Of a stretch of DNA of 64,000 nt, positions 8,825 to 39,588 are shown one piece after another. The stretch is from Bacteroides cellulosilyticus DSM 14838. Its GTDB lineage: Bacteria > Bacteroidota > Bacteroidia > Bacteroidales > Bacteroidaceae. The notes under the pieces are model-generated. The model saw nothing but the letters and a program-made list of their open reading frames with translations, did no database searches and had not been told where the DNA came from. The position numbers and the translations under genes were made by a program. How positions within the stretch are numbered: position 1 is the stretch's first letter; every line of letters begins with the position of its first letter. Location of the stretch: assembly GCF_000158035.1 (NCBI RefSeq), contig NZ_EQ973490.1, positions 1,052,517 through 1,116,516 of the forward strand, written 5' to 3'.

Positions 8825-8828
8825 AGTT

Positions 8829-19752: not shown

Positions 19753-19762
19753 AGCATTTTGT

Positions 19763-21091
19763 TTATAAAGGTTTACTTCCTGTAACTTTGATGCGATATG
19801 GCCATTGGGCATCTTTTTCCTCCGGATTGGGATTCATCCAATGTTCAGTAGGGGCACCCATCACAACCAGCCACAAATGAGTCAAATTATTTACTTTTGG
19901 AGCTGTAAAAATAATACTTTTTCCGCTATTATCACTCACATCCCCATAAATAGATTTACCATCCTCCGTTATGGCTACAAAACCATAACGCCAATCGGCT
20001 TTATCCGTATGAATTGCATTATATCCTTCCTTTCCTGCTTCTCCGCAGAACTCTACTTTTACTTTCTTTCCCTGTTCAGGTAAAGCTAACGGAATAGCAT
20101 TAAATCCATAATTCTCGGGACAGTTGTCCAGTGCGATTCCATACCACCCGTCCGATAGAGTGGTTAAGCTGGTAGTATATTTATTGGCATACGGTCGAGT
20201 TTCTTTCCATACACGAGAAAAATCCCAGTTGATAAAATGACGATAAGCATCAAACATTTCATCACAGAACTGCTTCTGATCTAATCCGGCCATCCGCTTG
20301 TAAGTTATCACCGGATCTTCTCCCTGCTTACCTTGACGATAGAGTTCGGCAATAAAAGGCAATCCTCGTTTCATACCCCAATATTCCAGTACATAGGGAG
20401 AGTGATAGATATTTTCCAAATGGAGATAAGCTTTATGAGTCAGCTTCATGAAAGCATCCCAATGATATTTTTCATCAGTGATCCATTCGGGATTTACTTG
20501 CCATAACATCCACTGCGAGGTCATTTCAAAGAAACCGCATCCTCCCCAAGCCTCTCCTTCTCCATCACAACTGATCTGAGCCTGAAAGCTATGTCCCAAT
20601 TCATGGGCAATGCAATTCAGTTTCTTATCCTGCACACGATTGGGAGCAATCCATAATGCACCGATTTCTCCATCATAATCACCACCATAGGCAGTGCCTT
20701 CCAAAGAGTAGTTTAGCATGACCATCATACGATACTTATCACACTTTGAACCCGGTTTGGAAAACTTCAAGGTATCTCGGAAGAAATGATAGAAACTTTC
20801 CAATTTTTCCGTTAAGTTCGACAAATCCACTTTCATATCATGCCCTTCCAATTGAGGAGGATTAGACAGATCATTTCCAAAACCTTTTTCCCAGAAGATG
20901 ACGAAATTATCAGTATATGCCATGCGGTGATAACTCCATTTACTATCAGGATTTTGAAGATCCATACCCTGCAAATCTTTAGGGATATAAATTTCTTTAC
21001 CGGAAGGCATTGGAACTTCAGTGGCACTCTGAACTTCAGAACAACAGCTAACCAATAAGAAGGTAGATAGAAGAAAAATATATTTATTCAT
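19763..21091 (-). CDS. DUF6055-like exported protein with zincin motif
   Basis: This encodes 442 residues with a lipoprotein signal (LVSC near residue 16). HELGH at H163-E164-H167 is a gluzincin-type zinc motif, and GEGEAWGGCGFFEMTSQW follows downstream with possible further ligands. The C-terminal part (about 310-440) is beta-rich. The pattern fits DUF6055 proteins, which are predicted secreted metallopeptidase-like proteins. Peptidase activity has not been shown and is inferred from the motif. It lies between SusD and EamA in the minus arm, which would make sense if the target is a glycoprotein. Confidence 0.7.
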   Translation of the reverse strand: MNKYIFLLSTFLLVSCCSEVQSATEVPMPSGKEIYIPKDLQGMDLQNPDSKWSYHRMAYTDNFVIFWEKGFGNDLSNPPQLEGHDMKVDLSNLTEKLESFYHFFRDTLKFSKPGSKCDKYRMMVMLNYSLEGTAYGGDYDGEIGALWIAPNRVQDKKLNCIAHELGHSFQAQISCDGEGEAWGGCGFFEMTSQWMLWQVNPEWITDEKYHWDAFMKLTHKAYLHLENIYHSPYVLEYWGMKRGLPFIAELYRQGKQGEDPVITYKRMAGLDQKQFCDEMFDAYRHFINWDFSRVWKETRPYANKYTTSLTTLSDGWYGIALDNCPENYGFNAIPLALPEQGKKVKVEFCGEAGKEGYNAIHTDKADWRYGFVAITEDGKSIYGDVSDNSGKSIIFTAPKVNNLTHLWLVVMGAPTEHWMNPNPEEKDAQWPYRIKVTGSKPL

Positions 21092-21182
21092 ACAGTCTTT
21101 AATTAAGTAAAGGGTGGTAACTAAAAACTTTGATACATCGCTTCCAGTTACTCACCCTTTATAGTATTAATAATGCTCTCTA

Positions 21183-22976
21183 TTAATTTTCATAAGGTTT
21201 TCCATCCAGATTAGGACATTTATTTAATTCATAACGAGGAACAGGCATCCAGTACATTTGTGGAGAAACAAATTTACGTTGTTGCAAAGGATTCTCATTA
21301 TGCTGATAAAGCAATGTACCATCTTTCAGTTTATAAATTTTTAAACCAGTAGGCCAGTTCTCCTGAGAATAAATTGTTTCCATTTTCTTCCAACGGCGAA
21401 GATCAAAGAAACGCTGTCCCTCAAACATCAGCTCAATCATACGTTCATATTCATATTCAGCGCGAATATCTGTTCCGAGAGCATCAGGCAACAGAGCACG
21501 GTTCCTAATATAGTTAATATACTTCAGAGCCTCATCCTTATTACCAAGTTCAATCTGGCATTCCGCATAGTTCAAATAGAATTCTGCCAAACGAAAGAAT
21601 ATCCACGGTGTTGTATCCATAATGGTCTCACTATACTGGTCATAAGTTGGATCCAGGAATTTGCGCATATAATAACCAGTCTGAGTTGCATTCCAATATT
21701 CTCCATCCGTATAGCTGGGTGACTGTTCTCCAGGAAGCACCCCTTCTTCCCCTGGTTCGTAAATAGCTATAGCATGGTTATCATCTCCATACCCCCACAT
21801 GGCTCCATCATATAAAATATTAGCATAAAAGCGTATTTCACGACCTTCCCAAGGTTTGATCTCAGTAGCCTCAATAGTTGCATCTTTATAAATAATCTGA
21901 TTTGTTTCCGGATCAACGCTAGGTAATGAAATATTATAAGAAGCTAAGCCCTTCACCGTATATTTGCTACCATCTTCATTCTGGAAAGCATTTACAATAT
22001 CATAAGTAGGCAACCATACTCCCCAACCATTATAGCCATTGTAAGGGCCATTAGGAGACTGGAACAAATAGTGTAGAGCACTTCCATAAGTACCTTTATT
22101 GTTATACAGTTTCTCGAAAATTATTTCGGGATTCTGCGTATTGTAAAACAGAGCTGCATATTCTTCACTACTGCTGACAGTAGGTAAACTGTATACTCCT
22201 AAATCAATAATATCCTTGCTTGCCTTAGCAGCCTCTTGCCATTTCTCCGTAGAAGGTTCTCCAAACAAAGGACTTGCCTTATAGAGCAAAGTACGAGCTT
22301 TCACTGCCATAGCAGCTCCCCGGGTAGCGCGTCCAAAATCATCACTACTTTCATATTTTAAAGGTAACTTTTCAATTGCACTCTCACAATCTTTTACGAT
22401 AAAATCTGCTACATCATCCATATCAGCACGTGTCTCCACCCAATCGGAATCAATATCAAACGTATGGTCTACCAAAGGAATGCGCCCGTAAAGTGAGTAA
22501 AGCTGATGATAGAAAAAAGCACGTAGAAAATAAGCCTGCCCGATAATTTCTGCTTTTCGGGTCTCTTCACTATCGGAAACAGCAGGTACCTTATCTATAT
22601 TCTCAAGCAACTGATTCACCTTTTTAATACCACTATAATAAAAGTTCCATGTATTACCTCTGGCTTCCGAAAAACCGACATTGTAATTATCGCAAGAAAC
22701 ATTTCCTAATGTATAAACTTCCGTTGCATAGCCGGTACGATGAAACAATTCATCCGTATAACTACAGAAAGGTACACCGTTTTCATTTTCTCCTTCCACA
22801 TAAGTATAGCAATTATTAAGGAATGCTTCTGCCAAATCCATATTTTCCCATACAGCCGCATCACTTATAGAATCGTGCGGATTGATATCCAAGAAGTCTG
22901 AGCAAGATACCGTGCTAATGCTCAGCAGAACCCAAAAAGCTCCTTTTAATATATTTCTTTTCATATTGTTTCTCAT
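21183..22976 (-). CDS. SusD/RagB-family outer-membrane lipoprotein
   Basis: This encodes 597 residues with a lipobox (VSC near residue 25) followed by SDFLDINPHDSISDAAVW, the usual SusD N-terminus. AYFLRAFFYHQLYSLYGRIPLVDH and FFRLAEFYLNYAECQIELGN are TPR-type segments. ERMIELMFEGQRFFDLRRWKK and the PVPRYELNKCPNL end are diagnostic. It forms the lid of the TonB-dependent glycan importer with the SusC encoded 13 bp upstream. A start four codons later (MKRN) is equally possible. Confidence 0.95.
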   Translation of the reverse strand: MRNNMKRNILKGAFWVLLSISTVSCSDFLDINPHDSISDAAVWENMDLAEAFLNNCYTYVEGENENGVPFCSYTDELFHRTGYATEVYTLGNVSCDNYNVGFSEARGNTWNFYYSGIKKVNQLLENIDKVPAVSDSEETRKAEIIGQAYFLRAFFYHQLYSLYGRIPLVDHTFDIDSDWVETRADMDDVADFIVKDCESAIEKLPLKYESSDDFGRATRGAAMAVKARTLLYKASPLFGEPSTEKWQEAAKASKDIIDLGVYSLPTVSSSEEYAALFYNTQNPEIIFEKLYNNKGTYGSALHYLFQSPNGPYNGYNGWGVWLPTYDIVNAFQNEDGSKYTVKGLASYNISLPSVDPETNQIIYKDATIEATEIKPWEGREIRFYANILYDGAMWGYGDDNHAIAIYEPGEEGVLPGEQSPSYTDGEYWNATQTGYYMRKFLDPTYDQYSETIMDTTPWIFFRLAEFYLNYAECQIELGNKDEALKYINYIRNRALLPDALGTDIRAEYEYERMIELMFEGQRFFDLRRWKKMETIYSQENWPTGLKIYKLKDGTLLYQHNENPLQQRKFVSPQMYWMPVPRYELNKCPNLDGKPYEN

Positions 22977-22989
22977 TAAAGGTTAATAA

Positions 22990-25900
22990 TTAGAATGTAA
23001 CGTTTACTCCAAAAGTCAAGGTGCGTTGGATAGGATAGCCCTTGATACCAGCTGTCATTTCAGGGTCGAAGATGCCCATACTGTCAATCGTGAAAAGATT
23101 ATTTCCATTAGCATAGATACGTAACTTCTCAAGACCCAATTTCTTTACCATAAGATTCGGGAAAGTATATCCCAATTCCACTGATTTCAAACGGACAAAT
23201 GAAGCATTACGAAGCCACCAAGTTGATGAAAGGGAATTACGATTATCTACGGCAGCTGCTTTCATAAAAGCACGGGGCCACTTAGCACTCGCATTCTCTT
23301 CGGCAGTATTGGTTTCTATCCAACGACCTTCATAAAAATCAGTAGGCATATTCATAGCTGGCATAACCAACTGTTCTGCATCAGCCTGTCCTTGGAAAAA
23401 TACATTCAGGTCGATTCCCTTCCATGCACCATTCAATGTCAAACCGAATATCCATTTCGGAGTGGTCGATTTATCTATTCTGATTGCATCATCCCATGTA
23501 ATGCTTTTATCACCATTTGTATCCTGATAAATCAAGTCACCCGGTTTAGTACCCGGAAGATGCGGAGTAGCATCGATTTCTTCTTGTGTCTGATAAATAC
23601 CTATAGCCTTATATACTGTGATACCATCAATGGGATGTCCCGTTGCACGCTGCCATTCGGGAGTCTTTGTAGCTTCGTCCATATAAACCACTTCATTATT
23701 GGCATAAGTAAGATTACCTGTTGCTCCCCATTCAAAATCACCTGCCTTATCACGATAAGTAGCAACTACCTCAAAACCATGATTCTTAACTTTACCCAGA
23801 TTCTCCGCCGGCAAAGACAATCCTGAATAAGTAGGAACAGAAGCATTACGAGTAATTAGAATATCATTACGACGTGATTGGAAGTAGTCAAAATCCAAGC
23901 CCAACTTTCCGCTCAAGAATTGTGCTGAGAAACCTACATTCCATGTCTTAGCCTTTTCCCAGGTTACTAACGGATTGGCAGTACGTGTTTCATAAACACC
24001 TTGCACATAACTTGGGTCCGTACCGAACGCATACGATGCACTACTATTAAAAGAATACATCGATAAATATTGATAAGCGGTAATATTATCATTACCCATC
24101 ATACCCCATGATCCTTTAATCTTGAAGAAATTGACAACATTCAGTAAAGGTTCAAAGAAGTCTTCCTGAGAAATGACCCATGCAGCCGATACAGAAGGAA
24201 AAACACCCCAACGATGACCTTGGGCAAAGTTCATGGAACCATCATAACGGATAGTGAATTCTGCCAAATATTTATCCTTATAACCATAATTGATACGTCC
24301 GAACCAGTTCTGTCGTGCTGTTTCTGTAGAATTTCCACCATTGTCCTTATCAGCATCCACTTTACTACCAAAGTCTAAGTCTGGTAATGCAGAAGACAGA
24401 TAATTAGTACGGTAGCCACTTAAAGAGCTATAATTATATTTACTCTGTTCGTAAGAAGCAAAAGCATCGATACGATGGGCTTCATTAAAAGTACGTGTAT
24501 ATCCTATACGGGCATTCAATGTAATAGTATTGCTCTTATTTGACCATGAATTTACACTGATAGCACCCGTCGCATCTTTATGGTTAGTGTATTCATCAGT
24601 AGCAGAACTATAAGAATAAATATCATAAGGCGTATTTATACTCTTACCGTCATTGAATGAATAATCCAATGCTGCGTAACCTTCAGCATACAATCCGGGA
24701 GTAAGTGCATCCAGATCAATGCGAACCTTAGGTTTCAGATTCAAGGTATGATAATTAGTCTTATTGGTTCCCGGAGTATCAGATACCATCAAAAGCGCAT
24801 TGTTAGTGATACCGTCATATCCAATTCTCAACAATCCGTTCGGATAGTAAGGCGCCGACATCGGATTGGTAGTAAGGAAGTATCCGAATAAATCTTCCGT
24901 AGAGTAAATACCACGATTACGTACTTCCTGGCGCCCCAGAATATCCATACTGAATTTAATGGATTTATTAATCTTCGCATCAATATTAGTAGTGAACTGA
25001 TATTGATTATAATTCTGTGGAGTATTCTTATAAATAGCATCTTGATAGGCATACTGTGCCGAAGAATAGAATGAGAGTTTATCATTTCCACCGCTTACCG
25101 AAAGGCTATGTTGGGTATTAGTAGCCCAATTCTTCGTTACAGAGTCCCACCAATCCGTATCAGGAAAGCTGATAGGATCGCTTCCGTCCAAGATTTTAGC
25201 CATAGCTGTTTCCGAATAAGTAGGTGTATTACCTTGTGCTGCATCGAACTCATTGACATAAGTAGCATACTGATAAGAATTTAACATTTCAGGGATGCGT
25301 GTCGGTTGAGAGAATGATACATTACCACTATAATTAACCTTCACTTTCCCTTCAGCACCACGTTTGGTGGTAACCAAGATAACACCATTAGCAGCACGTG
25401 CACCATAAATAGCAGCAGAAGCATCCTTTAATACGGAGATGGATTCAATATCTTCGGGATTCAAACGACTGAATGAACGGTCGGCAATACCATCTACTAC
25501 AATTAGCGGAGCAGTACTTCCCAAGGTTCCCTTACCACGAATCAGGATATCAGCATTATCTTCGCCAGGTTCACCAGAACGTGTATTAGCAATAACACCG
25601 GCTGTTTTACCTGCAAGTGTATTCGTTAGATTGGCAGCAGCAAGTTTTTTAATTTCATCTCCGCCCACTTGAGATATAGATCCTGTCAAAGTAGCCTTTT
25701 TCTGGGTACCATATCCCACAACCACTACCTCATCAAGCATCTCAGTATCTTCCTTTAAAGTTATACTGAATGTTTTTTTTCCATCTACCGGAACATACAC
25801 GGTCTCATATCCCACATAAGAAACAGTCAAGATTGACTTTACAGGAACAGTTAATGTAAAATTTCCATCAATATCTGTTATTGTACCGTTGGACGTACCC

Positions 25901-26118
25901 TTCACCACTACACTGGCACCAATAATAGCTTCACCATTGGAATCTATAATTTTACCAGTTATAGTACCTGTTTGCTGTACAATTTCCGTCCTCATAGTCT
26001 CTGTCACTTCCGAGAATGCAAATGCCTGGCTTACACTGGCACCTGCTGCAAGGAAAAGGCAGATTGTTGCCTTTAGGACAGCTTTGCTGAACAAGGCTCG
26101 ATTTTCATGTGTATTCAT
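22990..26118 (-). CDS. SusC/RagA-family TonB-dependent outer-membrane transporter
   Basis: This encodes 1042 residues with a signal peptide and an N-terminal carboxypeptidase-D-like domain (GKIIDSNGEAIIGASVVVKG). A TonB-box-like LDEVVVVGYGTQKK and a plug with VIANTRSGEPG and DASAAIYGARAANGVILVTTKRG follow. The rest is a beta-barrel ending in a terminal aromatic residue (GVNVTF). It imports oligosaccharides with its SusD partner. The GH127 gene ends 68 bp upstream, and no strong promoter is seen between them. Confidence 0.95.
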   Translation of the reverse strand: MNTHENRALFSKAVLKATICLFLAAGASVSQAFAFSEVTETMRTEIVQQTGTITGKIIDSNGEAIIGASVVVKGTSNGTITDIDGNFTLTVPVKSILTVSYVGYETVYVPVDGKKTFSITLKEDTEMLDEVVVVGYGTQKKATLTGSISQVGGDEIKKLAAANLTNTLAGKTAGVIANTRSGEPGEDNADILIRGKGTLGSTAPLIVVDGIADRSFSRLNPEDIESISVLKDASAAIYGARAANGVILVTTKRGAEGKVKVNYSGNVSFSQPTRIPEMLNSYQYATYVNEFDAAQGNTPTYSETAMAKILDGSDPISFPDTDWWDSVTKNWATNTQHSLSVSGGNDKLSFYSSAQYAYQDAIYKNTPQNYNQYQFTTNIDAKINKSIKFSMDILGRQEVRNRGIYSTEDLFGYFLTTNPMSAPYYPNGLLRIGYDGITNNALLMVSDTPGTNKTNYHTLNLKPKVRIDLDALTPGLYAEGYAALDYSFNDGKSINTPYDIYSYSSATDEYTNHKDATGAISVNSWSNKSNTITLNARIGYTRTFNEAHRIDAFASYEQSKYNYSSLSGYRTNYLSSALPDLDFGSKVDADKDNGGNSTETARQNWFGRINYGYKDKYLAEFTIRYDGSMNFAQGHRWGVFPSVSAAWVISQEDFFEPLLNVVNFFKIKGSWGMMGNDNITAYQYLSMYSFNSSASYAFGTDPSYVQGVYETRTANPLVTWEKAKTWNVGFSAQFLSGKLGLDFDYFQSRRNDILITRNASVPTYSGLSLPAENLGKVKNHGFEVVATYRDKAGDFEWGATGNLTYANNEVVYMDEATKTPEWQRATGHPIDGITVYKAIGIYQTQEEIDATPHLPGTKPGDLIYQDTNGDKSITWDDAIRIDKSTTPKWIFGLTLNGAWKGIDLNVFFQGQADAEQLVMPAMNMPTDFYEGRWIETNTAEENASAKWPRAFMKAAAVDNRNSLSSTWWLRNASFVRLKSVELGYTFPNLMVKKLGLEKLRIYANGNNLFTIDSMGIFDPEMTAGIKGYPIQRTLTFGVNVTF

Positions 26119-26186
26119 ACTACATCTTTAATTTAAAGGTTAATATTTTATTACAAGTTATAATTCACTAAATCAAGATAAAACTA

Positions 26187-28622
26187 TTAGTTTACTTTCC
26201 ATTCAATAACCCCACCCGATGCACCTTTCTGCAATTGGGCAGCTATTTTCAGTCCTGTCGTTTTCACCGGTTTGAAATCAAGGCTGTTGTAGCAGTCTTT
26301 CTTTACCGTATATTCGTTCAAAGCTTCTACTTCTTTCCAGCTTTTACCATCTTTATAGTAGAGTATCCAACTTTCCGGCACCCGGAAATCCCCGTCATAA
26401 TGATCGAAATCCAACCAGTACACTTCTACGTTTGAAATCGTATAAGGTTGATCAAATTGATAAGCCAAAGTTTCCTGTGTTCCATTTCTCAACCACCAGT
26501 AGTGATAAGGTTTGGAAATATCCGATGAGCGCTTTGGTTCCCACTGGTCATTCACACCCCATGCCCAGGTTTCAACCGAAGCAGATTCAGGAGCATCTTT
26601 CTGGATAGGTGCTTGTATCATCAGTGTATGTGCCTTGCTGGCGATTGTTGGCTCCGGAGTAGGACGGGCATACTCTGCAGCTTCAGGAATCCATACCGCC
26701 ATCTGGTCTGCACCACGATTATTCCAAGTGGAATAAGGAATGGCTTTGAAAGGGACCTCTTTCACACTACCATCTTTTTCTATTTCCTTAGCTGTACCAG
26801 TCAACACCATGACACCGTTTAATAAATCAGCATCGTAAGTTGCCTCCATTGAAGTTCCGTCAGGAATAAACTTATTAAAGACAATGCTGTCAACCTGATC
26901 TTTACCTTCCAGGCAGAACATAATTGGGCCACGCTCGATAGCAAGCTTACCACGGTCATCTTCTACATTATCATTCGCTTTCACACGGCGGACATCCATC
27001 GGGAAATTAATTTCCACAACATCTCCAGTCTTCCAGTCATGGAGAATCGTAGCATAACCATCCAGTTGCGTGGCATTTACTTTCTTGCCATTAATAGAGA
27101 TAGTGTAAGCCTTTGCCTTATCAGTAAACGAATAAAGGTCCGTAGGTACAGGAGCATCCTGTGCCCATCCCGGAATACGAACGCGCAAAGCAAACTCCTG
27201 TTCTTTTTCGGGATTAACGGAAATGCTGACTTTGCCATCCCACGGATAGGTTGTGATCTGTTCCAATTTTACATTGTTAGTTTCCGTATTCAATTCGGCT
27301 TTACTCTGGATATAAAGATTGACATAAATATCATTGCCCTGAGTAGCATACATGTAAAAAGGTACGGAAGCCATGAAACGCGTTACATTACCCGGACAGC
27401 AAGCGCAACCAAACCATTGCTGGCGTTCATGTTGCCCCATAGACTCAAGCGGATTATCATAGAAAAATTTATCGCCACTGAGTGAAACACCCGAAATAAC
27501 TCCATTATAAAGAGCACGCTCCAGTACATCGGCATACTTGGCATTACCCGTAGCCAGGAACATACGGTGATTCCAATATACATTGGCAATGGCAGCACAA
27601 GTCTCACAGTATGCGGTATGGTTATTCAATTCATAGTTAGGACCAAATCCTTCACCCTGCGGACGTGAACCGATACCACCAGTGATAAAAAGCTTCTTAC
27701 TTGCCATATTTTCCCAGATACGGCTTAAAGCATTGAAATAAGCTGTATCCTGAGTTAATGAAGCTACATCGGCAACACCGGAATAAAGATATCCCGCACG
27801 TACGGCATGACCTACTATTTCATCTTGTTGCAAAATGGGTTTGTGATCTTGGCTGTATTCGCTGAGACGATGTCCGTCTGTTCCGCGACCGGTTTCCTCT
27901 ACAAAGTATTTAGCCATTTTCAAATACTTTTCATCACCTGTCACCTTATATAACTTAGCAAGGGCCATTTCAGCGATAGGATGCCCGGAAGGAACATGCT
28001 TCTGTCCTTCATTCGGACCAAAGACCTCACATACCAAGTCGGCATTCTTGATAGCCACATCAAGGAGATTACGCTTCCCTGTTGCACGATAATGAGCAAC
28101 GGCAGCTTCATACAAATGACCGCTATTATAAAGTTCATGACTATTAATCTTTTCCCAACGACTCTTTCCCCACCAACCGGAAAGGCGATAGCATTTATTA
28201 GTAACACAAGTGGTAAGATAGCCATCCGGTTCCTGAGCAGTAGCAATCAAGGTAATAACGCTATCCAAATAAGCATCCAGCGCTTTATCATATTTCACAG
28301 CCAGCGAATAAGAGGCTCCTTCTATAATCTTATAAGGATCAGTATCATCAAAAGAAAAGTCACCGCGATGTTCTCCCTTCATCAGACCACCAGCTATGGC
28401 GAAGTTATCAAAGCGTCCATTCTTCTCACATTCCTTAAATGCTGAAGGTATGGAAACAGTACGATTGGTTTCAATGCGTGGAGTCCAGAAGTTATCATCC
28501 AAGTGGACTTGAGTAAAGGGAACTTCTTTTATCGGTGCATCGGGCTGAACATACGAGTCGTTACAAGCACTCATACTAAAAAGGGCAACACTACCGAAAA
28601 AGTATTTAGTTATTCTATTCAT
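26187..28622 (-). CDS. GH127 beta-L-arabinofuranosidase-family lipoprotein
   Basis: This encodes 811 residues from MNRITKYFFG, with a lipobox (SAC, then NDSY). The catalytic (alpha/alpha)6 domain spans about 40-470. GH127 zinc and nucleophile residues are present: E340 and C342 in YCETC, then C408 and C409 in FGCACCPGN. In characterised GH127 enzymes one of the paired cysteines is the nucleophile. The C-terminal part is beta-rich, with a discoidin-like tail. The likely activity is release of beta-L-arabinofuranose. It is first in the minus arm. A further in-frame start nine codons upstream is less likely because it would precede the signal peptide. Confidence 0.88.
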   Translation of the reverse strand: MNRITKYFFGSVALFSMSACNDSYVQPDAPIKEVPFTQVHLDDNFWTPRIETNRTVSIPSAFKECEKNGRFDNFAIAGGLMKGEHRGDFSFDDTDPYKIIEGASYSLAVKYDKALDAYLDSVITLIATAQEPDGYLTTCVTNKCYRLSGWWGKSRWEKINSHELYNSGHLYEAAVAHYRATGKRNLLDVAIKNADLVCEVFGPNEGQKHVPSGHPIAEMALAKLYKVTGDEKYLKMAKYFVEETGRGTDGHRLSEYSQDHKPILQQDEIVGHAVRAGYLYSGVADVASLTQDTAYFNALSRIWENMASKKLFITGGIGSRPQGEGFGPNYELNNHTAYCETCAAIANVYWNHRMFLATGNAKYADVLERALYNGVISGVSLSGDKFFYDNPLESMGQHERQQWFGCACCPGNVTRFMASVPFYMYATQGNDIYVNLYIQSKAELNTETNNVKLEQITTYPWDGKVSISVNPEKEQEFALRVRIPGWAQDAPVPTDLYSFTDKAKAYTISINGKKVNATQLDGYATILHDWKTGDVVEINFPMDVRRVKANDNVEDDRGKLAIERGPIMFCLEGKDQVDSIVFNKFIPDGTSMEATYDADLLNGVMVLTGTAKEIEKDGSVKEVPFKAIPYSTWNNRGADQMAVWIPEAAEYARPTPEPTIASKAHTLMIQAPIQKDAPESASVETWAWGVNDQWEPKRSSDISKPYHYWWLRNGTQETLAYQFDQPYTISNVEVYWLDFDHYDGDFRVPESWILYYKDGKSWKEVEALNEYTVKKDCYNSLDFKPVKTTGLKIAAQLQKGASGGVIEWKVN

Positions 28623-28674
28623 AATATGTAATAAAGATATGGATTTCATAATTCTTCTTGCAATTAGCGTATTA

Positions 28675-28682
28675 CAAAGTAA
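28675..28682 (-). promoter_or_regulatory. Possible -7 box of the minus-arm operon
   Basis: Minus-strand TTACTTTG differs by one base from TAnnTTTG and is the same octamer as the one ahead of the GH97 gene (29513-29520). A matching -33 box was not found, as expected for an activator-dependent promoter. Confidence 0.35.
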
Positions 28683-29013
28683 TGGATTTCTTTTTTAACA
28701 GGATAAAACAATAATCTATATGAATGCTAAAATAGTCGAGTCACAAAGCCTCAGAAGGGGATTTAGACAATCATTTCATATATTGGATTATTTTTTCATA
28801 CCTGTAGGTACTATACACAATAAGCCCATAAATGACAAACGAAAAGGGAACGGAACACCAATTATTAACTGAATCTGCAATATTTTACAGGAAGTGCTTC
28901 TCATATTCATCGCATATAATGATCATTCAAAAACTACACCCAACCAGACAGATATCCGGAATGCACCTACTCCTTACTTACTCCCTATCTACTCTTTCTT
29001 ATTATACAAGGAG
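28683..29013. other. Divergent intergenic region between PUL arms
   Basis: No supported gene is present. The stretch is AT-rich. An open frame at 28832-29080 covers part of it but is explained by the decayed regulator end. Near 28984-29010 faint similarity to the 3' end of the propeller-AraC regulator gene may continue upstream of the clear repeat. Confidence 0.4.
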
Positions 29014-29080
29014 AAAGAAGCGTTCGGCCCGGCGAATATCAGAAACAGATAAAAGAGAAGAAAGTACCCATCCATCTTAA
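29014..29080 (+). pseudogene. 3' remnant of a propeller-AraC regulator gene
   Basis: The sequence encodes degraded equivalents of the last 20 or so residues of the regulator at 39589-42477, with the same terminal EESTHPS and stop. The upstream body of the gene is missing. Confidence 0.7.
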
Positions 29081-29123
29081 TTAAGCAGCAAAGCACCCGA
29101 TTATTTCAGGTAATTTTGTTCAA

Positions 29124-29174
29124 ATCATAGGGGGTAATTAGTCAATTTAGAGTTGATTAATTACCCCCTATGAT
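29124..29174. terminator. 22-bp stem-loop in leader, copy A
   Basis: ATCATAGGGGGTAATTAGTC and its continuation AA pair with the later TTGATTAATTACCCCCTATG-AT across a TTTAGAG loop; the single non-Watson-Crick position is a G-T. It follows the regulator remnant by 43 bases. No T-run follows, so it may act as a processed or regulatory stem rather than a classical terminator. Confidence 0.55.
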
Positions 29175-29288
29175 TTGATTTATAAGCATTAACAGCTTTG
29201 CCCTTATTTGTTTTCCTTTGCTGCCGAAAGATGGATGAGCTCACCTCTATCGAAAGAAAAAGAAACCTTTAATTTTAAATTCAAATTC

Positions 29289-29372
29289 ATGAAGAACTAT
29301 CATTTTAAAGGTACAAAGAAGCTACGCCCTAAATACGAGATAAATAAGAATCAGATAAGTACATGCAAATGA
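29289..29372 (+). pseudogene. 5' remnant of a susC gene
   Basis: The first seven codons (MKNYHFK) equal those of the SusC gene at 42686; after that the sequence diverges and stops after 27 codons. No plug or barrel sequence remains. Confidence 0.6.
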
Positions 29373-29512
29373 ATGAAAAAAATAGTCCAATCGAATACAA
29401 GAATACTACAAACAGCCATTCAGAAGGCCACAGAAAGGTATCTTTTGGACTATTCTTTTATTTCATTATATTATTCAGTCTTTCCGTTCGCTCTTTTTTC
29501 TTTTACTTTGCA

Positions 29513-29520
29513 AACAGACA
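29513..29520 (+). promoter_or_regulatory. Probable -7 box ahead of the GH97 gene
   Basis: TTACTTTG is one mismatch from TAnnTTTG and lies 20 bases before the chosen ATG. A TTCG at 29487-29490 is a weak -33 box at a 22-base spacing. Confidence 0.4.
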
Positions 29521-29539
29521 AATAAGAATTAACCGAATT

Positions 29540-32266: not shown

Positions 32267-32333
32267 CCAGCGTAGTGCTGGAGCAAAGTTTGCTGCGCGG
32301 TGCAAGTAATTTTTCTAACAATAAAGTAACAAT

Positions 32334-34736
32334 ATGAATAGAACCATCCTTTTAATCACTTCCTTTTTAATAGGAGTTGTCTCTGCCTTTGCACAGGCCG
32401 CTTTCAATGCTCCGGGGACGGGTAATCCCGTGATTCCCGGATATTTCGCCGACCCTACTATCAAAAAGTTTGGTGATACTTATTATATGTACGCCACTAC
32501 CGATGGCAGTGGTGCAGGCTTTGGCCCCGCACAAGTATGGACCAGCAAGGACTTCGTAAACTGGACCTTGATGCCCATGAACTGGCCCGACAGTCACTGG
32601 ATATGGGCACCTGATGTGATGCAGCATTCTGATGGGAAGTACTACTACTTTTACTGCCAGCCCTGTATCATCCATTGCGGAGTCAGTGAAACTCCCCGTG
32701 GTCCGTGGAAGAATATCCTGGGCAATAGCGAAGCGGTCCTTATCCCCGACCGCTTCGTAACAAATGCCATCACTCTGGATGGACAAACATTTGTGGACGA
32801 TGACGGTTCAGTCTATATGTACTGGGGAACCTGGGGCATTTACAAAGGTTTCGGTTGCGGTGCCGGAAAATTAGCTCCCGATTTGAAGAGTTTTACCGAA
32901 ACCCGCCTCATCCCCAATACCGAAGCTACCGATTTCTTCGAAGCACCTTTTGTAATCAAACGCAATGGAACCTACTACTTTATGTATTCCTCCGGTTCCT
33001 GCCACGACCACACATACCGTGTGCAATACGCCACTTCAGACAAGCCCCTGGGTCCTTACACCTATGGTGGCTGTATCCTCGAAACCAATGCTGACGGAAC
33101 CATTCACGGTCCCGGGCACCACAGTATCCTTCAGGAAGGCAATGATTACTATATCGTTTATCACCGCCACGATAATCCACACTCCAACCGTGGTTTCCAC
33201 CGCCAGCTTTCCATCGACCGCATGACATTCAATGCAGACGGGACGATTCAGAAAATCATCCCTACTCATGACGGCGTAGGTGTACTGGCCCCCTCCGTTG
33301 TTAAATCAAACAACCTCGCCTTTGGTAAAAGCGTGCGTGCCTCTTCCTCTTATGATGACAACTTCCGTCCTGAATATGCCGTAGATGATAACAACGGAAC
33401 TTTATGGCGTCCGCGCGGCATGGGACAGGAATGGCTTGAAATAGACCTGGGACGCCCCCAACAGATACAAACGATCTGGACACAATTTGAATATGGCACT
33501 CAGTTCTATCAATACCTGATTGAAACTTCAACAGATGGTAAACGCTGGACTATCTTTGCCGACAAGCGGAACAATCATCTGGCAGGCAGCCCAATGGTAG
33601 ATTTCGGAAAAGCCAAAGCCCGCTTCGTGCGCCTCACCTATACCGGCGGACAGAAGAATGGCTTCGGTGGCGCTATCTGGAACCTCAAGGTATTTTCCGG
33701 TATCGAAGACTCCGCTCCCCAACAATGGCTCGGACTGACAGCCGCCGACTGGAATGGCCGCCAATGGCAGAATAATGAAGGAATGTTAGGAGGTGCTTTT
33801 ATCCTGAAAGCAGGATCAGCTCGCACCGAGCGCATTGACGGACGCGACGCACTGGTTCTCGAACCGGGCACTACGCTAGAATACCGTCATCCGTTACTTT
33901 CTCCCTCCAAAGAGCATACAATTAGTGGGTTAGTTCATAGGTTAGGTAGATGGCAAAGCTACGAAGCGGAACCTGCCCTTTCATCCGGTGTGATTTCGCT
34001 TCAAAGCAGAGCCGAACCCTTAATCATCACTAATCTGCGTTACTATAACTGGAAACAGGCACCTGCCGAACAGGAATATGATACCACTACGGATATCGTC
34101 CGCTTACCGGCTGCTGATCAGCGAAAGCGTGGCCTAGTAGTAAGCATCACCGCTGATGACTTCGCCGCAGGCGACACCGTACATTATCTTTCCAATCATG
34201 GAATAGAAGGATACTTCGAAGCCCACAAAGCCCCCTCCATCATTAAGGAAGTGGAAGGAAAAAAGAGTTTCAGTTTTGATGGTCATCAGGTATTCCAGTC
34301 CAACTTCTCCCTGCCTGCAACCTTGCTGGACAATGCCCCCTATACATTGGAAGCCTGGATACTGAATGATTCTATTGCCGAAAACGAATGTGTAGCCGAC
34401 TTCACGACTTCGCATGACGAATTGGAAAAGATTATGCTCGTCAATGGCACGGAGCCCCGATGCGGTGTCATCAACCACTACGGCTGGTACGAAGATGCCG
34501 GATACAAGGACATGAAAGAGCTGACCGGCAAATGGCAGCATATCTATATTTGTTTCGACGGCCGCATGGAACAAGTATATATCAATGGTAAATTAATTAG
34601 CGAAAAAGATATTCAATTGCTAATAAAACCATCACAATACGTAACTTTGGGGCGGAATGCAGAACACAACTGGCCGTTCACGGGCTACCTGCATTCACTG
34701 AAACTATGGGACGAATATATTCCAATCAAGAAATAA
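32334..34736 (+). CDS. GH43 enzyme with F5/8-type and LamG-like domains
   Basis: This encodes 800 residues with a signal peptide (about 1-21). The GH43 five-bladed domain (about 25-330) shows GYFADPTI (catalytic Asp), WIWAPDV and DFFEAPFVIKRNGTYYFMY (catalytic Glu), plus GPGHHS. Residues about 330-455 form a discoidin/F5-8C domain (VDDNNGTLWRP, EWLEIDLG). Residues about 650-795 form a LamG/concanavalin-like domain (YTLEAWILND, WQHIYICFDG). GH43 members act mostly on alpha-L-arabinofuranosides or xylosides; which one applies here cannot be decided. It is probably co-transcribed with the genes on both sides. Confidence 0.9.
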   Translation: MNRTILLITSFLIGVVSAFAQAAFNAPGTGNPVIPGYFADPTIKKFGDTYYMYATTDGSGAGFGPAQVWTSKDFVNWTLMPMNWPDSHWIWAPDVMQHSDGKYYYFYCQPCIIHCGVSETPRGPWKNILGNSEAVLIPDRFVTNAITLDGQTFVDDDGSVYMYWGTWGIYKGFGCGAGKLAPDLKSFTETRLIPNTEATDFFEAPFVIKRNGTYYFMYSSGSCHDHTYRVQYATSDKPLGPYTYGGCILETNADGTIHGPGHHSILQEGNDYYIVYHRHDNPHSNRGFHRQLSIDRMTFNADGTIQKIIPTHDGVGVLAPSVVKSNNLAFGKSVRASSSYDDNFRPEYAVDDNNGTLWRPRGMGQEWLEIDLGRPQQIQTIWTQFEYGTQFYQYLIETSTDGKRWTIFADKRNNHLAGSPMVDFGKAKARFVRLTYTGGQKNGFGGAIWNLKVFSGIEDSAPQQWLGLTAADWNGRQWQNNEGMLGGAFILKAGSARTERIDGRDALVLEPGTTLEYRHPLLSPSKEHTISGLVHRLGRWQSYEAEPALSSGVISLQSRAEPLIITNLRYYNWKQAPAEQEYDTTTDIVRLPAADQRKRGLVVSITADDFAAGDTVHYLSNHGIEGYFEAHKAPSIIKEVEGKKSFSFDGHQVFQSNFSLPATLLDNAPYTLEAWILNDSIAENECVADFTTSHDELEKIMLVNGTEPRCGVINHYGWYEDAGYKDMKELTGKWQHIYICFDGRMEQVYINGKLISEKDIQLLIKPSQYVTLGRNAEHNWPFTGYLHSLKLWDEYIPIKK

Positions 34737-34758
34737 TACCATAAAACGAATAATAACC

Positions 34759-37164
34759 ATGAGAAAAGTATTAGTTACCACCCTGCTGGTTGCCGCCACC
34801 GTAGGCAGTCAGGCGCAAGTGAAAAACCAATCGCACGGGTATCCCATCGATCCCGTACCTTTCACCTCGGTGAAAGTAACCGACTCCTTCTGGGGACAAC
34901 GTCTCAACGCGAGCCGAGAGGTAACCATCCCCTTGGCATTCAGCAAATGCGAGGAAACCGGAAGATACCAGAACTTCGTCAACGCAGCCCATCCCAGTGA
35001 TACCATTAAAGTAGGCGGACTGGCTTTCGACGATACGGACGTATACAAAACCATCGAAGGTGCCAGCTACCTGTTGCAGACGTATCCCGATAAGAAACTG
35101 GCCAAATACATTGACAGCGTGCTCGTCATTGTAGCCGCCGCACAGGAACCGGACGGATACCTTTATACCAGCCGAACCATGAATCCGAAACATCCCCATG
35201 AATGGGCGGGAAGCAAACGCTGGGAAAAGGTAGAAGACCTAAGCCACGAGTTCTACAACCTAGGGCACATGGTGGAAGGCGCCATCGCCCACTACCAGGC
35301 CACCGGAAAGAAGAACTTCCTCAATATCGCCATCCGATACGCCGACTGCGTATGCCGTGAAATCGGTACAGGCGAAGGGCAGCAAATTCGTGTCCCCGGA
35401 CATCAGATTGCCGAAATGGCACTTGCCAAACTTTATCTGGTTACCGGAGACCAGAAATACCTCGACCAGGCCAAGTTCTTCCTCGACCAGCGTGGATATA
35501 CCAGTCGTACCGATGAATACAGCCAGGCACATAAGCCGGTGGTTCAACAGGATGAAGCTGTGGGACACGCCGTTCGCGCCGCATATATGTATGCAGGTAT
35601 GGCCGACGTAGCCGCCCTGACGGGAGACACCGCCTACATTCATGCCATCGACCGCATCTGGGACAATATCGTTGGCAAGAAATATTACATCACCGGCGGT
35701 ATCGGAGCTACAGCAGCCGGAGAGGCTTTCGGCAAGAACTACGAATTGCCCAACATGTCAGCCTATTGCGAGACTTGTGCTGCTATCGGCAACGTGTATG
35801 TCAACTACCGTCTTTTCCTCCTGCACGGTGAATCCAAATACTACGATGTACTGGAACGCACTTTATACAATGGCCTGATTTCAGGCGTATCCTTAGATGG
35901 CGGCGGTTTCTTCTACCCCAACCCGCTGGAAAGTATGGGACAGCATCAACGCCAGCCCTGGTTCGGTTGTGCCTGCTGCCCGTCCAACATCTGCCGTTTC
36001 ATCCCGTCCCTGCCGGGATATATCTACGCTGTGAAGGATAAGGACGTTTACGTCAACCTCTTCATGTCCAACACTTCCGACCTGAAAGTGGGTGGCAAAG
36101 CTGTTTCTATCGAGCAAACCACCAAATACCCGTGGAACGGTGACATTACCATCGGCATCAACAAGAATAACGCCGGACAGTTCAACCTGAAAGTCCGTAT
36201 TCCCGGATGGGTTCGGGGTCAGGTAGTCCCCAGTGACCTGTATACCTATAGTGACGGCAAGCGTCTGAAATACACAGTGAAAGTAAACGGAGAAGCCGTA
36301 CAGAATGAACTGAAAGATGGTTATTTCTGCATCGACCGCCGTTGGAAAAAGGGTGATAAGGTGGAAGTACACTTCGACATGGAACCGCGCACCGTGAAAG
36401 CCAACAATAAGGTGGAAGCCGACCGTGGACGCATTGCCGTAGAACGCGGACCGATTGTATACTGTGCAGAATTCCCGGATAACAACTTCGACATCTTCAG
36501 CGTATTCATGAACCGTAACCCGAAGTTTGAAGTGGTGGAAAAGCCCGATCTACTGTATGGCATCAACCAATTGAAGACCGGCGCACAGACACTTGGCTAT
36601 GACGATCAGGGTCGCCTGACCACTACCGATGTGAACCTGACACTGATACCTTACTACGCATGGGCCCACCGTGGTTCGGGAGCTATGGAAGTATGGTTGC
36701 CACAAGAGCTGAGCGCATCCCGCCCCGCCATGCCTGCCACACTGGCTTCGGAAAGTAAAATAGACGCATCCCACCGCGCAAGCTCCATTTCAGCCATCAA
36801 CGACCGCCTGGTTCCGAAAGATGAGAACGACCGTTCCCTGCCCTACTACCATTGGTGGCCCAAACAGGGAACTACGGAATGGATCACGTATGAGTTCCCG
36901 GCAGAAGCTACCGTATCAAGTTCCACCGTATATTGGTTCGACGATGCTCCCTGGGGCGGTTGTCGTGTACCGAAAAGCTGGAAGATATATTATAAAGATG
37001 CACAAGGCCAGTGGCAACCCGTCACAGGTGTCGACAAATATGGCGTTGTAAAAGGTGCGGGAAACACCGTAAACTTTGATCCCGTGAAGACCAAATCAGT
37101 AAAACTGGAAATCACCCTGCCGGACAAAAATGCAGCAGGTGTTTATGAATGGGAAGTACAATAA
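34759..37164 (+). CDS. GH127 beta-L-arabinofuranosidase
   Basis: This encodes 801 residues with a signal peptide ending near GSQAQ. E338 and C340 (CETC) plus C406 and C407 (FGCACCPSN) are the residues needed for zinc-cysteine GH127 catalysis. EYSQAHKPVVQQDEAVGHAVRAAYMY and NPLESMGQHQRQPWFG are family signatures. It closely resembles the enzyme at 26187-28622 in domain order, including a discoidin-like C-terminal tail. It starts 22 bp after the GH43 gene and ends 13 bp before the DPP-IV-like gene, so it is within one operon. The likely product is L-arabinose from beta-linked arabinofuranose. Confidence 0.92.
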   Translation: MRKVLVTTLLVAATVGSQAQVKNQSHGYPIDPVPFTSVKVTDSFWGQRLNASREVTIPLAFSKCEETGRYQNFVNAAHPSDTIKVGGLAFDDTDVYKTIEGASYLLQTYPDKKLAKYIDSVLVIVAAAQEPDGYLYTSRTMNPKHPHEWAGSKRWEKVEDLSHEFYNLGHMVEGAIAHYQATGKKNFLNIAIRYADCVCREIGTGEGQQIRVPGHQIAEMALAKLYLVTGDQKYLDQAKFFLDQRGYTSRTDEYSQAHKPVVQQDEAVGHAVRAAYMYAGMADVAALTGDTAYIHAIDRIWDNIVGKKYYITGGIGATAAGEAFGKNYELPNMSAYCETCAAIGNVYVNYRLFLLHGESKYYDVLERTLYNGLISGVSLDGGGFFYPNPLESMGQHQRQPWFGCACCPSNICRFIPSLPGYIYAVKDKDVYVNLFMSNTSDLKVGGKAVSIEQTTKYPWNGDITIGINKNNAGQFNLKVRIPGWVRGQVVPSDLYTYSDGKRLKYTVKVNGEAVQNELKDGYFCIDRRWKKGDKVEVHFDMEPRTVKANNKVEADRGRIAVERGPIVYCAEFPDNNFDIFSVFMNRNPKFEVVEKPDLLYGINQLKTGAQTLGYDDQGRLTTTDVNLTLIPYYAWAHRGSGAMEVWLPQELSASRPAMPATLASESKIDASHRASSISAINDRLVPKDENDRSLPYYHWWPKQGTTEWITYEFPAEATVSSSTVYWFDDAPWGGCRVPKSWKIYYKDAQGQWQPVTGVDKYGVVKGAGNTVNFDPVKTKSVKLEITLPDKNAAGVYEWEVQ

Positions 37165-37177
37165 AGGTTAGTTAGAT

Positions 37178-39430
37178 ATGAATGTTTGTAAGTTAGGTTT
37201 GTCGATAGCCATGCTCCTTAGCGGGGGCATGGCTTTCGCACAAGGCACAGTGGACGATTATAACCGTGCCTACGCATTGAGAGAGAAATTCAGTGCCAAC
37301 AAAGTTTTCTACTCCAACGTCACGCCGCAGTGGATAGAAGGCACACATCAGTTCTGGTATGTACGCAATACGCCCGAAGGCCGTATCTACGTATCGGTGA
37401 ACGCAGACAAGAAAAACAGAAAGGAGTTGTTCGACCACAAGCGTCTGGCAAGCGCACTGAGCAACGCATCCGGCAAAGAAGTAAAGCCCGAAGCAATCCA
37501 ACTGGAACGGCTACGAGTGAACCCGAGCTTAGATACGCTTCGTTTTGTTTTTGGTAATCAGCGCTGGATGTACGCCACCCGCAAAAATCAGTTGGTAAAT
37601 GAAGGTGCCCTGCCCGACCGCAATGCACCACAAAAACACTGGATGGAACGGGATGACGAAAAAGAAGCCGCTCCCGTAACTTCACCCGATGGAAAGTATA
37701 CCGCCTATATCAAAAATCAGAATGTATATGTGAAGGAACTTGCCACGGGAAAAGAGAAGCAGTTGAGCCTTGACGGTACACTCAGCAACTATTACTCAGT
37801 TTATATCCGCTGGTCTCCGGACAGCAAGAAGGTGGTATCCTGCAAAATCCGCCCAGTAGAGAAACGCTATGTGTACTATGTAGAGTCTTCTCCGGCAGAT
37901 CAGCTCCAACCGAAACTGCACAAGCAGGAATATGCCAAACCGGGAGACGAACTTCCTTTCAAGATACCTTGCATTTATGAAGTTGAAACAGGACGAGGCA
38001 TCATCCCCAGCACCGACCTCTTCGACCGGCAGTATGAAATATACGGTCCCGAATGGAACCCGGACAGCCGTTCCGTTACCTTCGAGTACAACCAGCGCGG
38101 ACATCAGGCATATCGTGTACTTGAACTCTCTGCCGAGACAGGCACCGTACGTCCTCTGATAGAAGAAACCAGCGACAAATACGTGAATTATACCCGCCGT
38201 TTCCGCCACGACCTAAGGGATAACAAGCACATCATCTGGATGAGCGAACGGGATAACTGGAACCACCTGTACATGTACGACCGCTCTACCGCACAACCCG
38301 TCCATCAGATAACCCGCGGCAAATGGTATGTGCGCGAAGTGCTCCGCGTAGACGAGGACAACCGGCAGATTTATTTCTCCGCAAATGGTGTACAACCCGG
38401 TGAGGATCCTTATCTCATCCGCTATTACCGCATTGGTTTTGACGGGAAAGACTTGGTTTGCCTTACTCCGGAAGAAGGAATGCACCGTGCCTGGTTCTCG
38501 GGAGATATGAATTATCTGGTAGACGTTCACTCTATGGTAAACAAAGCTCCTGTTACCGTATTGCGCAGTGCCGAAGATGGCAAGGTGGTGATGCCGCTGG
38601 AGACAGCCGATATCAGTCGTCTGGAAGCAGAAGGCTGGAAAGCACCGGAAGTATTTACCGCCAAGGGGCGTGACGGCAAAACGGATATGTGGGGACTGAT
38701 TGTTCGTCCCACTAACTTCGACCCGAACCGGAAGTATCCGGTTATCGAATACATTTACCAAGGTCCCGGCGACCAGTATGTACCAAAGACTTTCATCCCG
38801 TACAACTGGTACATGACTTCCCTTGCCGAACTCGGTTTTATCGTCGTCATGGTAGACGGAATGGGAACTTCTTTCCGTTCACGTGAATTTGAGAATGTAT
38901 GTTATAAGAATCTGAAAGATGCAGGACTTCCCGATCACATCGCCTGGATTAAAGCTGCCGGAGAGAAGTATCCGTATATGGATATGGATCGTGTAGGCAT
39001 CTACGGCTGTTCCGCCGGTGGCCAAGAATCCACCACTGCCGTGCTGCTACATCCCGAATTCTATAAAGCCGCTTATTCCGCCTGTGGCTGCCACGACAAC
39101 CGCATGGATAAAATCTGGTGGAACGAACTCTGGCTGGGATATCCCGTAGGAGATCAATATAAGGAAGGATCGAATGTAGAGAATGCCCATTTGCTGAGCC
39201 GTCCCCTGATGCTGGTGGTAGGCGAACTGGACGATAATGTAGATCCTGCCTCAACCATGCAGGTGGTGAACGCACTGATAAAAGCCAACAAAGATTTTGA
39301 ATTGGTAGTGATTCCCGGTGCACACCACACGATGGGAGAAGATTTCGGGGAACATAAACGCTATGATTTCTTTGTACGCCATTTACAAGGAGGAATTCCA
39401 CCGGAATGGAATGCAATAACATATCGCTAG
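37178..39430 (+). CDS. Dipeptidyl peptidase IV-like S9 peptidase
   Basis: This encodes 750 residues with a signal peptide ending near AFAQG. The N-terminal DPP-IV beta-propeller (about 100-490) includes WSPDSKKV and WNPDSRSVTFEYNQRG. The alpha/beta-hydrolase domain has GIYGCSAGGQES with catalytic Ser612, GELDDNVDP (Asp) and PGAHHTMGE (His). DPP-IV removes X-Pro dipeptides from peptide N-termini, usually in the periplasm. A proline-specific peptidase inside a glycan operon is notable and would fit proline-rich plant glycoproteins. A strong bidirectional terminator follows. Confidence 0.9.
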   Translation: MNVCKLGLSIAMLLSGGMAFAQGTVDDYNRAYALREKFSANKVFYSNVTPQWIEGTHQFWYVRNTPEGRIYVSVNADKKNRKELFDHKRLASALSNASGKEVKPEAIQLERLRVNPSLDTLRFVFGNQRWMYATRKNQLVNEGALPDRNAPQKHWMERDDEKEAAPVTSPDGKYTAYIKNQNVYVKELATGKEKQLSLDGTLSNYYSVYIRWSPDSKKVVSCKIRPVEKRYVYYVESSPADQLQPKLHKQEYAKPGDELPFKIPCIYEVETGRGIIPSTDLFDRQYEIYGPEWNPDSRSVTFEYNQRGHQAYRVLELSAETGTVRPLIEETSDKYVNYTRRFRHDLRDNKHIIWMSERDNWNHLYMYDRSTAQPVHQITRGKWYVREVLRVDEDNRQIYFSANGVQPGEDPYLIRYYRIGFDGKDLVCLTPEEGMHRAWFSGDMNYLVDVHSMVNKAPVTVLRSAEDGKVVMPLETADISRLEAEGWKAPEVFTAKGRDGKTDMWGLIVRPTNFDPNRKYPVIEYIYQGPGDQYVPKTFIPYNWYMTSLAELGFIVVMVDGMGTSFRSREFENVCYKNLKDAGLPDHIAWIKAAGEKYPYMDMDRVGIYGCSAGGQESTTAVLLHPEFYKAAYSACGCHDNRMDKIWWNELWLGYPVGDQYKEGSNVENAHLLSRPLMLVVGELDDNVDPASTMQVVNALIKANKDFELVVIPGAHHTMGEDFGEHKRYDFFVRHLQGGIPPEWNAITYR

Positions 39431-39565: not shown

Positions 39566-39588
39566 TGTATCGATATATAAAAGATACT

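Follow-up and report, generated by a model that had tools for sequence, protein, structure and literature searches.

A 64,000-nucleotide stretch of Bacteroides cellulosilyticus DSM 14838 (contig NZ_EQ973490.1, positions 1,052,517 to 1,116,516, forward strand; hereafter the window) carries a polysaccharide utilization locus (PUL; 14870-39430) which, judging from its predicted enzymes and structure models, probably serves the breakdown of extensin or similar plant glycoproteins rich in arabinosylated hydroxyproline (Hyp), such as the solanaceous lectins. Extensins are abundant and very resistant proteins of the plant wall. Their repeat, as given in PMC13164431, is a serine followed by four Hyp residues, with α-galactose (α-Gal) on Ser and one to four arabinoses (Ara1-4) on Hyp, and the Hyp arabinan is described in PMC6085000 as Araf-α1,3-Araf-β1,2-Araf-β1,2-Araf-β-Hyp (Araf, arabinofuranose). 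The extensin reading is preferred because the gene set fits each of these features, namely β-Araf on Hyp, α-Gal on Ser and runs of Pro and Hyp, and its support lies in the genes present, their intact catalytic motifs, fold predictions, gene neighbourhood and gene fusions. An earlier note on this DNA, made from the letters alone, had suggested joint removal of sugar and peptide. This suggestion is supported by the relation of a DUF6055 protein to the peptidase Svx, by a fold like that of the Pro-Pro endopeptidases (PPEPs), by fusions of peptidase and glycosidase domains and by a run of hydroxyproline genes, and a predicted α-galactosidase of glycoside hydrolase (GH) family 97, fitting the α-Gal on extensin serines, is now added to it.

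Pfam and NCBIfam annotation resolved the locus into a single PUL built of two divergent operons (Table 1). The minus-strand operon comprised, in order of transcription, GH127a, SusC, SusD, DUF6055, an EamA-family transporter and a hybrid two-component system regulator (HTCS), the last three frames overlapping, while the plus-strand operon comprised GH97, GH43, GH127b and an S9 peptidase, separated by gaps of 67, 22 and 13 bases. The SusC/SusD pair, linked enzymes and regulator expected of a PUL were all present, and the HTCS, from its position, is the probable regulator of the minus-strand operon. The cassette delimited earlier, 19763-39430, ends exactly with the DUF6055 gene on one side and the S9 gene on the other, and its two GH127 enzymes, its GH43 and a third relative at 50168, here a distant GH127-like protein, were all recovered by the same annotation.

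The GH97 protein scored above the cut-off of the NCBIfam model for retaining α-galactosidases (NF053844; 857.7 bits, cut-off 800), in line with the retaining type proposed before, and aligned to the solved α-galactosidase 3a24 (E = 5e-196). Its start in the listed open reading frame (ORF; 29363-32266, plus strand) is probably too early, and Met60 (base 29540) is preferred: among the 24 relatives that share this GH97 fusion, the open frame before the zincin domain spans just 644-713 codons, and that of the window spans 662 codons when read from Met60 but 721 from the start as listed. The HExxH motif was sought in 16 window proteins, and the two zincin motifs announced by the earlier note were indeed found. 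A reading of these as two free zincin proteins was rejected, as the second motif (HEFAH at residue 861) belongs to a C-terminal domain of 246 residues with which the GH97 protein ends.

Pfam returned weak matches only for this C-terminal domain (ATLF and M90), and because its ATLF score stayed below the cut-off (22.9 bits against 27.4) it is named PPEP-like here, not PPEP; 43 of its 44 relatives matched ATLF at E up to 1, with a best E of 9.5e-8. The structure model of the domain (pLDDT 90.7, pTM 0.90) predicts a fold closest to the M34-like Pro-Pro endopeptidases among solved structures (PPEP-3, Z = 14.8; PPEP-2, 14.7; PPEP-1, 14.2; next family, 12.0), with an rmsd of 3.3-3.4 over 174-188 residues and an identity of just 13-18%. 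The sole Foldseek match under 0.001 was again PPEP-3 (E = 4.8e-5). Residues W100, H140, E141, H144, Y179 and E186 were unchanged in 44 of 44 aligned sequences and E185 in 43, a further copy (L040:7344-8063) having been left out of the alignment as it contains a stop. Compared by spacing only, the distance of 7 from Tyr to Glu equals that from Y178 to Glu185 in PPEP-1, and the invariant W100 lies 41 residues ahead of the catalytic Glu, against 40 for Trp103 of PPEP-1, whose S-loop Trp/Tyr residues touch the substrate. The PPEP-1 residues (Trp103, E143, Y178 and the Glu184/185 tandem) follow PDB titles and PMC12828418, according to which PPEPs cleave between prolines. The alignment profile of the domain gave only a suggestive match when run against PDB sequences (best E = 0.011, PPEP-3), so that the relation to PPEPs is drawn from the fold of the model and the spacing of its residues.

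The other zincin, a protein of 442 aa, was assigned to DUF6055 (PF19527; 522.9 bits, cut-off 27). Its motif, HELGH at residue 163 within HELGH-X21-E, fits the HExxHX(8-28)E gluzincin signature of Svx/AvrXca, and H163, E164, H167 and E189 were unchanged across 24 aligned sequences. The Svx/AvrXca profile NF040510 matched its peptidase region (E = 1.4e-20). Svx of Pectobacterium atrosepticum cuts carrot extensin and not mucin, and its two domains have been proposed to read Hyp-arabinans and Ser-α-Gal (PMC13164431; earlier Svx papers are PMC10815107 and PMC9266454). The predicted structure of the DUF6055 protein (pLDDT 87.8) has a β-rich C-terminal third, and its best match by VIA was lugdulysin, a peptidase of family M30 (Z = 16.6, with an rmsd of 4.4 across 274 residues). 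Foldseek with the same model gave poor alignments only (top, an M60 peptidase, E = 2.8e-4, TM 0.28), and a sequence search of solved structures had no match at E up to 1. The protein is a probable lipoprotein from its N-terminal sequence: a lipobox regular expression, crude enough to miss the lipobox of both SusD proteins and serving as a hint only, matched 10 of 24 DUF6055 and 8 of 15 GH127a relatives compared to 0 of 29 GH127b, 0 of 28 GH43 and 0 of 31 S9 relatives.

A scan for the PPEP-like domain over the 84,980 species genomes of a GTDB-based collection yielded 46 loci in Bacteroides, Phocaeicola, Dysgonomonas, Proteiniphilum, Paludibacter, Tannerella, Prevotellaceae, one metagenome-assembled genome (MAG) labelled Clostridiaceae and five Verrucomicrobiales. 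Counts below use the 42 strong loci (one from Verrucomicrobiales), the weak and partial matches L044-L047 (E = 7e-8 to 1e-6) having been left out, and a neighbourhood is the fetched stretch of up to 10 kb on each side; 17 of the 42 loci were shorter than 20 kb owing to contig ends, so that absences of partners are partly artefacts. GH127 was present in 34 loci, S9 in 31, GH43 in 28, an α-galactosidase (GH97 or GH27) in 26, DUF6055 in 18 and aminopeptidase P in 6, and 41 of the 42 loci had at least one of these partners. A GH127b query found at least 10 matches in the 6.87 Mb of the window genome (10 of 16 candidates scored), a density from which about 0.03 to 0.05 GH127 genes would be expected per 20 kb, and the association with GH127 is therefore not due to chance. 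Gene order and orientation varied between locus groups, meaning that the linkage survived rearrangement; the counts cover related species, not independent events.

The PPEP-like domain shared one open frame with a glycosidase (29 loci) or an S9 peptidase (one locus) in 30 of the 42 loci and was free-standing in the other 12. GH97 was the partner in 24 loci; L029 and L035 had GH127 instead, L032 and L034 had GH43, L033 had GH27 and L028 had S9. Domain spans were checked for the six fusions without GH97, and the GH27 of L033, a different α-galactosidase family, was confirmed by Pfam. Each of these six frames comes from a single genome, mostly a MAG, and L028 is a 3.2-kb contig of the Clostridiaceae-labelled MAG. 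DUF6055 and GH97 also shared an open frame in 2 of 11 genomes (G110, by Pfam, and G123), the 11 having been chosen for long DUF6055 frames or for belonging to the same genus, and they were adjacent genes in G017 and G065. A third candidate fusion (G078, frame of 1109 aa) was rejected, as a stop codon parts the in-frame neighbours. Two peptidase folds and two α-galactosidase families thus keep meeting, and Ser-linked α-Gal on a Hyp-rich chain would explain this recurrent pairing. As a separate observation, DUF4859 proteins adjoined DUF6055 in several PULs (L014:1084-2088, L025:3841-5385, L033:18321-19781 and others), and DUF4859 domains occurred in one frame with DUF6055 in other genera; DUF4859 is a candidate sugar- or glycoprotein-binding module.

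A link to hydroxyproline itself was found in a Prevotellaceae locus (L041), from a genome that is probably of rumen origin, judging by the isolate name. A single strand (414-9433) carried, in this order, genes for 1-pyrroline-5-carboxylate (P5C) dehydrogenase, the PPEP-like domain, aminopeptidase P, a trans-4-hydroxyproline dehydratase (1147.5 bits, cut-off 1100), an activase-like protein, nearest to the dehydratase activase (323.2 bits, below the cut-off of 425), and a Xaa-Pro-peptidase-like protein. Four further loci (L014-L016 and L043) had aminopeptidase P and an EamA transporter between DUF6055 and the GH97-PPEP-like fusion, the aminopeptidase P of L014 having been checked with Pfam. In these four loci and in L021, L091 and L092, the EamA transporter adjoined aminopeptidase P, with DUF6055, the PPEP-like domain or both present; the cargo of this transporter, in the window and in its relatives, may be a peptide, an amino acid or a sugar product.

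Several findings weigh against the extensin reading. The DUF6055 protein reached only 73.5 bits on NF040510, far below the equivalog cut-off of 625, and is a relative of Svx only. DUF6055 is a broad family, with members in 88 genomes of a sample of 201 from the same taxonomic family, and is by itself no sign of extensin, since 25 of 35 DUF6055-centred loci (hand-picked from the listed hits, one for each genome with preference for longer contigs, thus not random) lacked all of GH127, GH97, GH43, S9, aminopeptidase P and the PPEP-like domain. The window genome had no hydroxyproline dehydratase above cut-off, so this bacterium may consume the sugars and peptides but not Hyp itself. Among ten window proteins scanned, there was no GH121 counterpart for the Hyp-arabinobiosidase step, the NCBIfam HypBA2 (GH121) profile having matched only the C-terminal accessory domain of GH127b. 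The peptidase called DPP-IV (dipeptidyl peptidase IV)-like in the earlier note does hold DPPIV_N propeller and Peptidase_S9 domains and aligned to the solved bacterial DPP IV 2d5l (E = 5.8e-52). The alignment leaves a 9-residue gap opposite the segment EFGIEKGTF of 2d5l, in or near which the acidic motif that binds the substrate N-terminus in DPP IV may lie, and the dipeptidyl cleavage after proline that had been assumed is therefore uncertain. Finally, the nearest solved relative of GH127b was 6ex6 (1150.7 bits), which we take to be BT3674 of the B. thetaiotaomicron arabinogalactan PUL, and GH127, though present as predicted, is for that reason a weaker marker of extensin than had been supposed.

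This last point brings forward the first rival, a PUL for arabinogalactan proteins (AGPs), which are likewise Hyp-rich: GH127, GH43 and GH97 would trim the side chains of an AGP, leaving its core to be digested by the peptidases. The PUL BT3674-87 includes arabinofuranosidases besides its GH127 and has arabinogalactan as primary substrate (PMC3243724), and BT3674 is reported to work with exo-galactanases on larch arabinogalactan (PMC10850190). GH127b alone would allow such a substrate, and AGPs are therefore kept as the first rival, but the sister form of the enzyme occurs in a different context. Among 40 loci hand-picked from the top of a genus-wide hit list, GH127b-type genes came in a long form with an extra C-terminal domain, which is that of the window (n = 19), and in a short, 6ex6-like form (n = 21). 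The PPEP-like domain was found in 15 of the 19 long-form loci, an S9 relative in 17 and a GH43 above 45% identity in 17, compared to 0, 1 and 0 of the 21 short-form loci, respectively, and DUF6055 was also absent from all 21. Two of the four long-form loci without the PPEP-like domain (L065, L067) end at a contig edge. For GH43 and GH97, this comparison counted relatives only if their identity exceeded 45%, and more distant relatives occurred in the short-form loci (GH43 in 8 of 21, at most 36%; GH97 in 16 of 21, at most 26%). One short-form locus that was scanned carried a polysaccharide set, with GH51-type enzymes, GH43, GH2, a protein of GH88 type and a GH97 other than that of the window. 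As its context differs in this way from that of the short form, the long form belongs with the peptidases. Moreover, for the proteins of the window that were scanned around the cassette, Pfam showed no other family of sugar hydrolases (e.g. GH16, GH30, GH35 or GH2), and 20 scanned out of 121 unmatched ORFs of at least 250 aa in related loci added only two GH2, one GH43, one GH127 and one BNR_4 hydrolase-like protein. An AGP substrate is thus considered unlikely. Separately, the short-form locus L071 possessed an S9 relative (4278-6527, minus strand) 77% identical to that of the window, without the rest of the cassette.

Both GH127 proteins belong to PF07944 and retain the ETC and CACC motifs of the zinc/cysteine site, aligned to 6ex6 for GH127b and read from the sequence for GH127a; a Cys nucleophile and a zinc site are described for GH127 in PMC10728902. 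They also matched the 'aceric acid hydrolase' profile, that of an enzyme for rhamnogalacturonan II (RG-II), at E of about 1e-144, below its cut-off, and β-L-Araf is present in RG-II and arabinan (PMC10850190), as would suit a PUL for RG-II or branched arabinan in which the β-L-arabinofuranosidases would attack the side chains of pectin, with the peptidases as mere passengers. An ordinary pectin PUL was rejected, or at least lowered to a very slight probability: the 35 scanned of the 67 listed window ORFs contained no pectate lyase, GH28, GH106 or GH78, and a passenger would not be expected to show the fusions of the PPEP-like domain, which joined a glycosidase in 29 of the 42 loci and S9 in one.

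Among solved structures, the closest to the GH43 enzyme was 5msx (E = 9.4e-49, covering residues 29-439), presumably BT_3662. L-arabinofuranose substrates of GH127 and GH43 enzymes are of plant type, and the PPEP-like domain was repeatedly linked and fused to enzymes of both families; several cassette hosts also appear, from their record names, to come from the termite gut or the rumen. These findings make it highly improbable that the locus serves a broad scavenging of proline-rich or O-glycosylated proteins (e.g. collagen or the proline-rich proteins of saliva), a reading in which the plant-type glycosidases would have other substrates, even though PPEP-like, S9 and aminopeptidase P enzymes are generally proline-directed and the cassette occurs in Phocaeicola vulgatus, including the laboratory strain ATCC 8482 (L005), and in other gut species.

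For extensin as the preferred substrate, the activities, their order and their location may be pictured as a pathway whose peptidases perform the endo-cutting done by a surface glycanase in ordinary PULs. The Svx-related DUF6055 protein, a probable lipoprotein, would cleave the glycoprotein extracellularly and might recognise its sugars, and the SusC/SusD pair would import the resulting glycopeptides. GH43 would then take off the capping α-L-Araf and the two GH127 enzymes would remove the β-L-Araf chain down to Hyp. GH97 would remove α-Gal from Ser, after which its fused PPEP-like domain would cut the bared Ser/Hyp/Pro run, and the S9 peptidase, joined by aminopeptidase P in some relatives, would trim the pieces. 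A wider proposal, for and against which we hold the balance to be about even, is that the PPEP-like clade of Bacteroidota is a hydroxyproline-adapted 'shave-and-cut' endopeptidase fused to the glycosidases that bare its sites (GH97 and GH27 for Ser-α-Gal, GH127 and GH43 for Hyp-arabinosides), that extensin is a regular gut nutrient, and that the endo-step of such PULs is proteolytic and not glycan cleavage.

The closest known systems share parts of this set. The hypBA1-hypBA2-hypAA genes of Bifidobacterium longum and XeHypBA1/BA2/AA of Xanthomonas have GH127/GH146 and GH43 enzymes in common with the window, and take Ara4 off the hydroxyproline of extensin and solanaceous lectins (PMC6085000; PMC10850190). 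These systems use GH121, and no peptidases are described for them in the available parts of either paper, whereas the SusC/SusD PUL of the window adds an α-galactosidase and three peptidase domains. Svx/AvrXca proteins of Pectobacterium, Dickeya and Xanthomonas have the HExxH...E gluzincin domain in common with DUF6055; their second domain is acyltransferase-like, and the DUF6055 protein, which lies in a nutrient-uptake locus, ends in a β-rich region that may or may not correspond to it. PPEP-1, -2 and -3 resemble the PPEP-like domain in fold, HExxH and the spacing of the Tyr and the Glu tandem, and differ from it in that this domain is joined to glycosidases and belongs mostly to genomes of Bacteroidota. 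The release of arabinosides from Hyp by enzymes of the GH43/GH121/GH127 type and cleavage of extensin by Svx were already known, and a role of GH127 in extensin breakdown had been predicted for Latescibacteria (PMC4454575). The proteolytic endo-step within a PUL and the combination of sugar removal and peptide cutting within single proteins are proposed here as new. A literature search covering few subscription journals retrieved no report of how gut Bacteroidota might eat extensin or of a Bacteroidota extensin PUL, none of DUF6055 in an extensin role (one paper, on Aspergillus peptidases, names the family) and none of a PPEP-like domain fused to glycosidases. The locus would provide a complete, testable parts list for extensin breakdown and defined tools for dismantling this protein; DUF6055, a Pfam family of unknown function, would gain a likely substrate, and PPEP-like enzymes would be extended to a group in which a proline preference would serve an obvious dietary purpose.

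Table 1. Predicted features of the probable extensin PUL and of the neighbouring PUL B (positions within the window).
Feature	Position	Strand	Basis
HTCS, hybrid two-component regulator	14870..18844	-	Pfam Reg_prop, Y_Y_Y, HisKA, HATPase, Response_reg, HTH_18
EamA-family transporter, gene preceding HTCS	18841..19812	-	Pfam
DUF6055 gluzincin with C-terminal β-rich region, lipobox-like N-terminus	19763..21091	-	Pfam, E 8e-157
SusD-like protein 1	21183..22976	-	Pfam
SusC-like TonB-dependent transporter 1	22990..26118	-	NCBIfam TIGR04056, 1019.7 bits
GH127a, predicted β-L-arabinofuranosidase, lipobox-like N-terminus	26187..28649	-	Pfam, E 1.2e-115; 6ex6, E 1.6e-207
GH97 catalytic part, predicted retaining α-galactosidase	29540..31525	+	NF053844; start taken as Met60 of listed ORF 29363-32266
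Gluzincin domain, C-terminal in GH97 protein, Pro-Pro-endopeptidase-like fold	31526..32263	+	Structure model
GH43 with F5/8-type C and laminin-G-like domains, predicted α-L-arabinofuranosidase	32334..34736	+	Pfam; activity inferred
GH127b with C-terminal F5/8-type domain, predicted β-L-arabinofuranosidase	34759..37164	+	Pfam, E 5.8e-127; 6ex6
S9 peptidase with DPPIV_N propeller	37178..39430	+	Pfam
PUL B regulator: Reg_prop, Y_Y_Y, AraC-type HTH	39565..42477	+	Pfam
PUL B: SusC2, SusD2, DUF5695, distant GH127-like protein (50168-52162)	42605..52162	+	Pfam

PUL B, which begins at 39565, is a neighbouring PUL and was kept apart from the extensin cassette. Pfam listed no kinase or receiver domain in its regulator, which may be a one-piece transmembrane transcription factor. 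Proteins resembling its DUF5695 member, with 21-22% identity, also adjoined the PPEP-like domain in L023 and L034. On the other side, downstream of the HTCS, the minus strand encoded a large tricorn-type protease (11541-14789; PD40 propeller, tricorn PDZ and S41 domains), and TolB-like and other 6-bladed propeller proteins were clustered with an NVEALA-family protein at 1053-6452 on the same strand.

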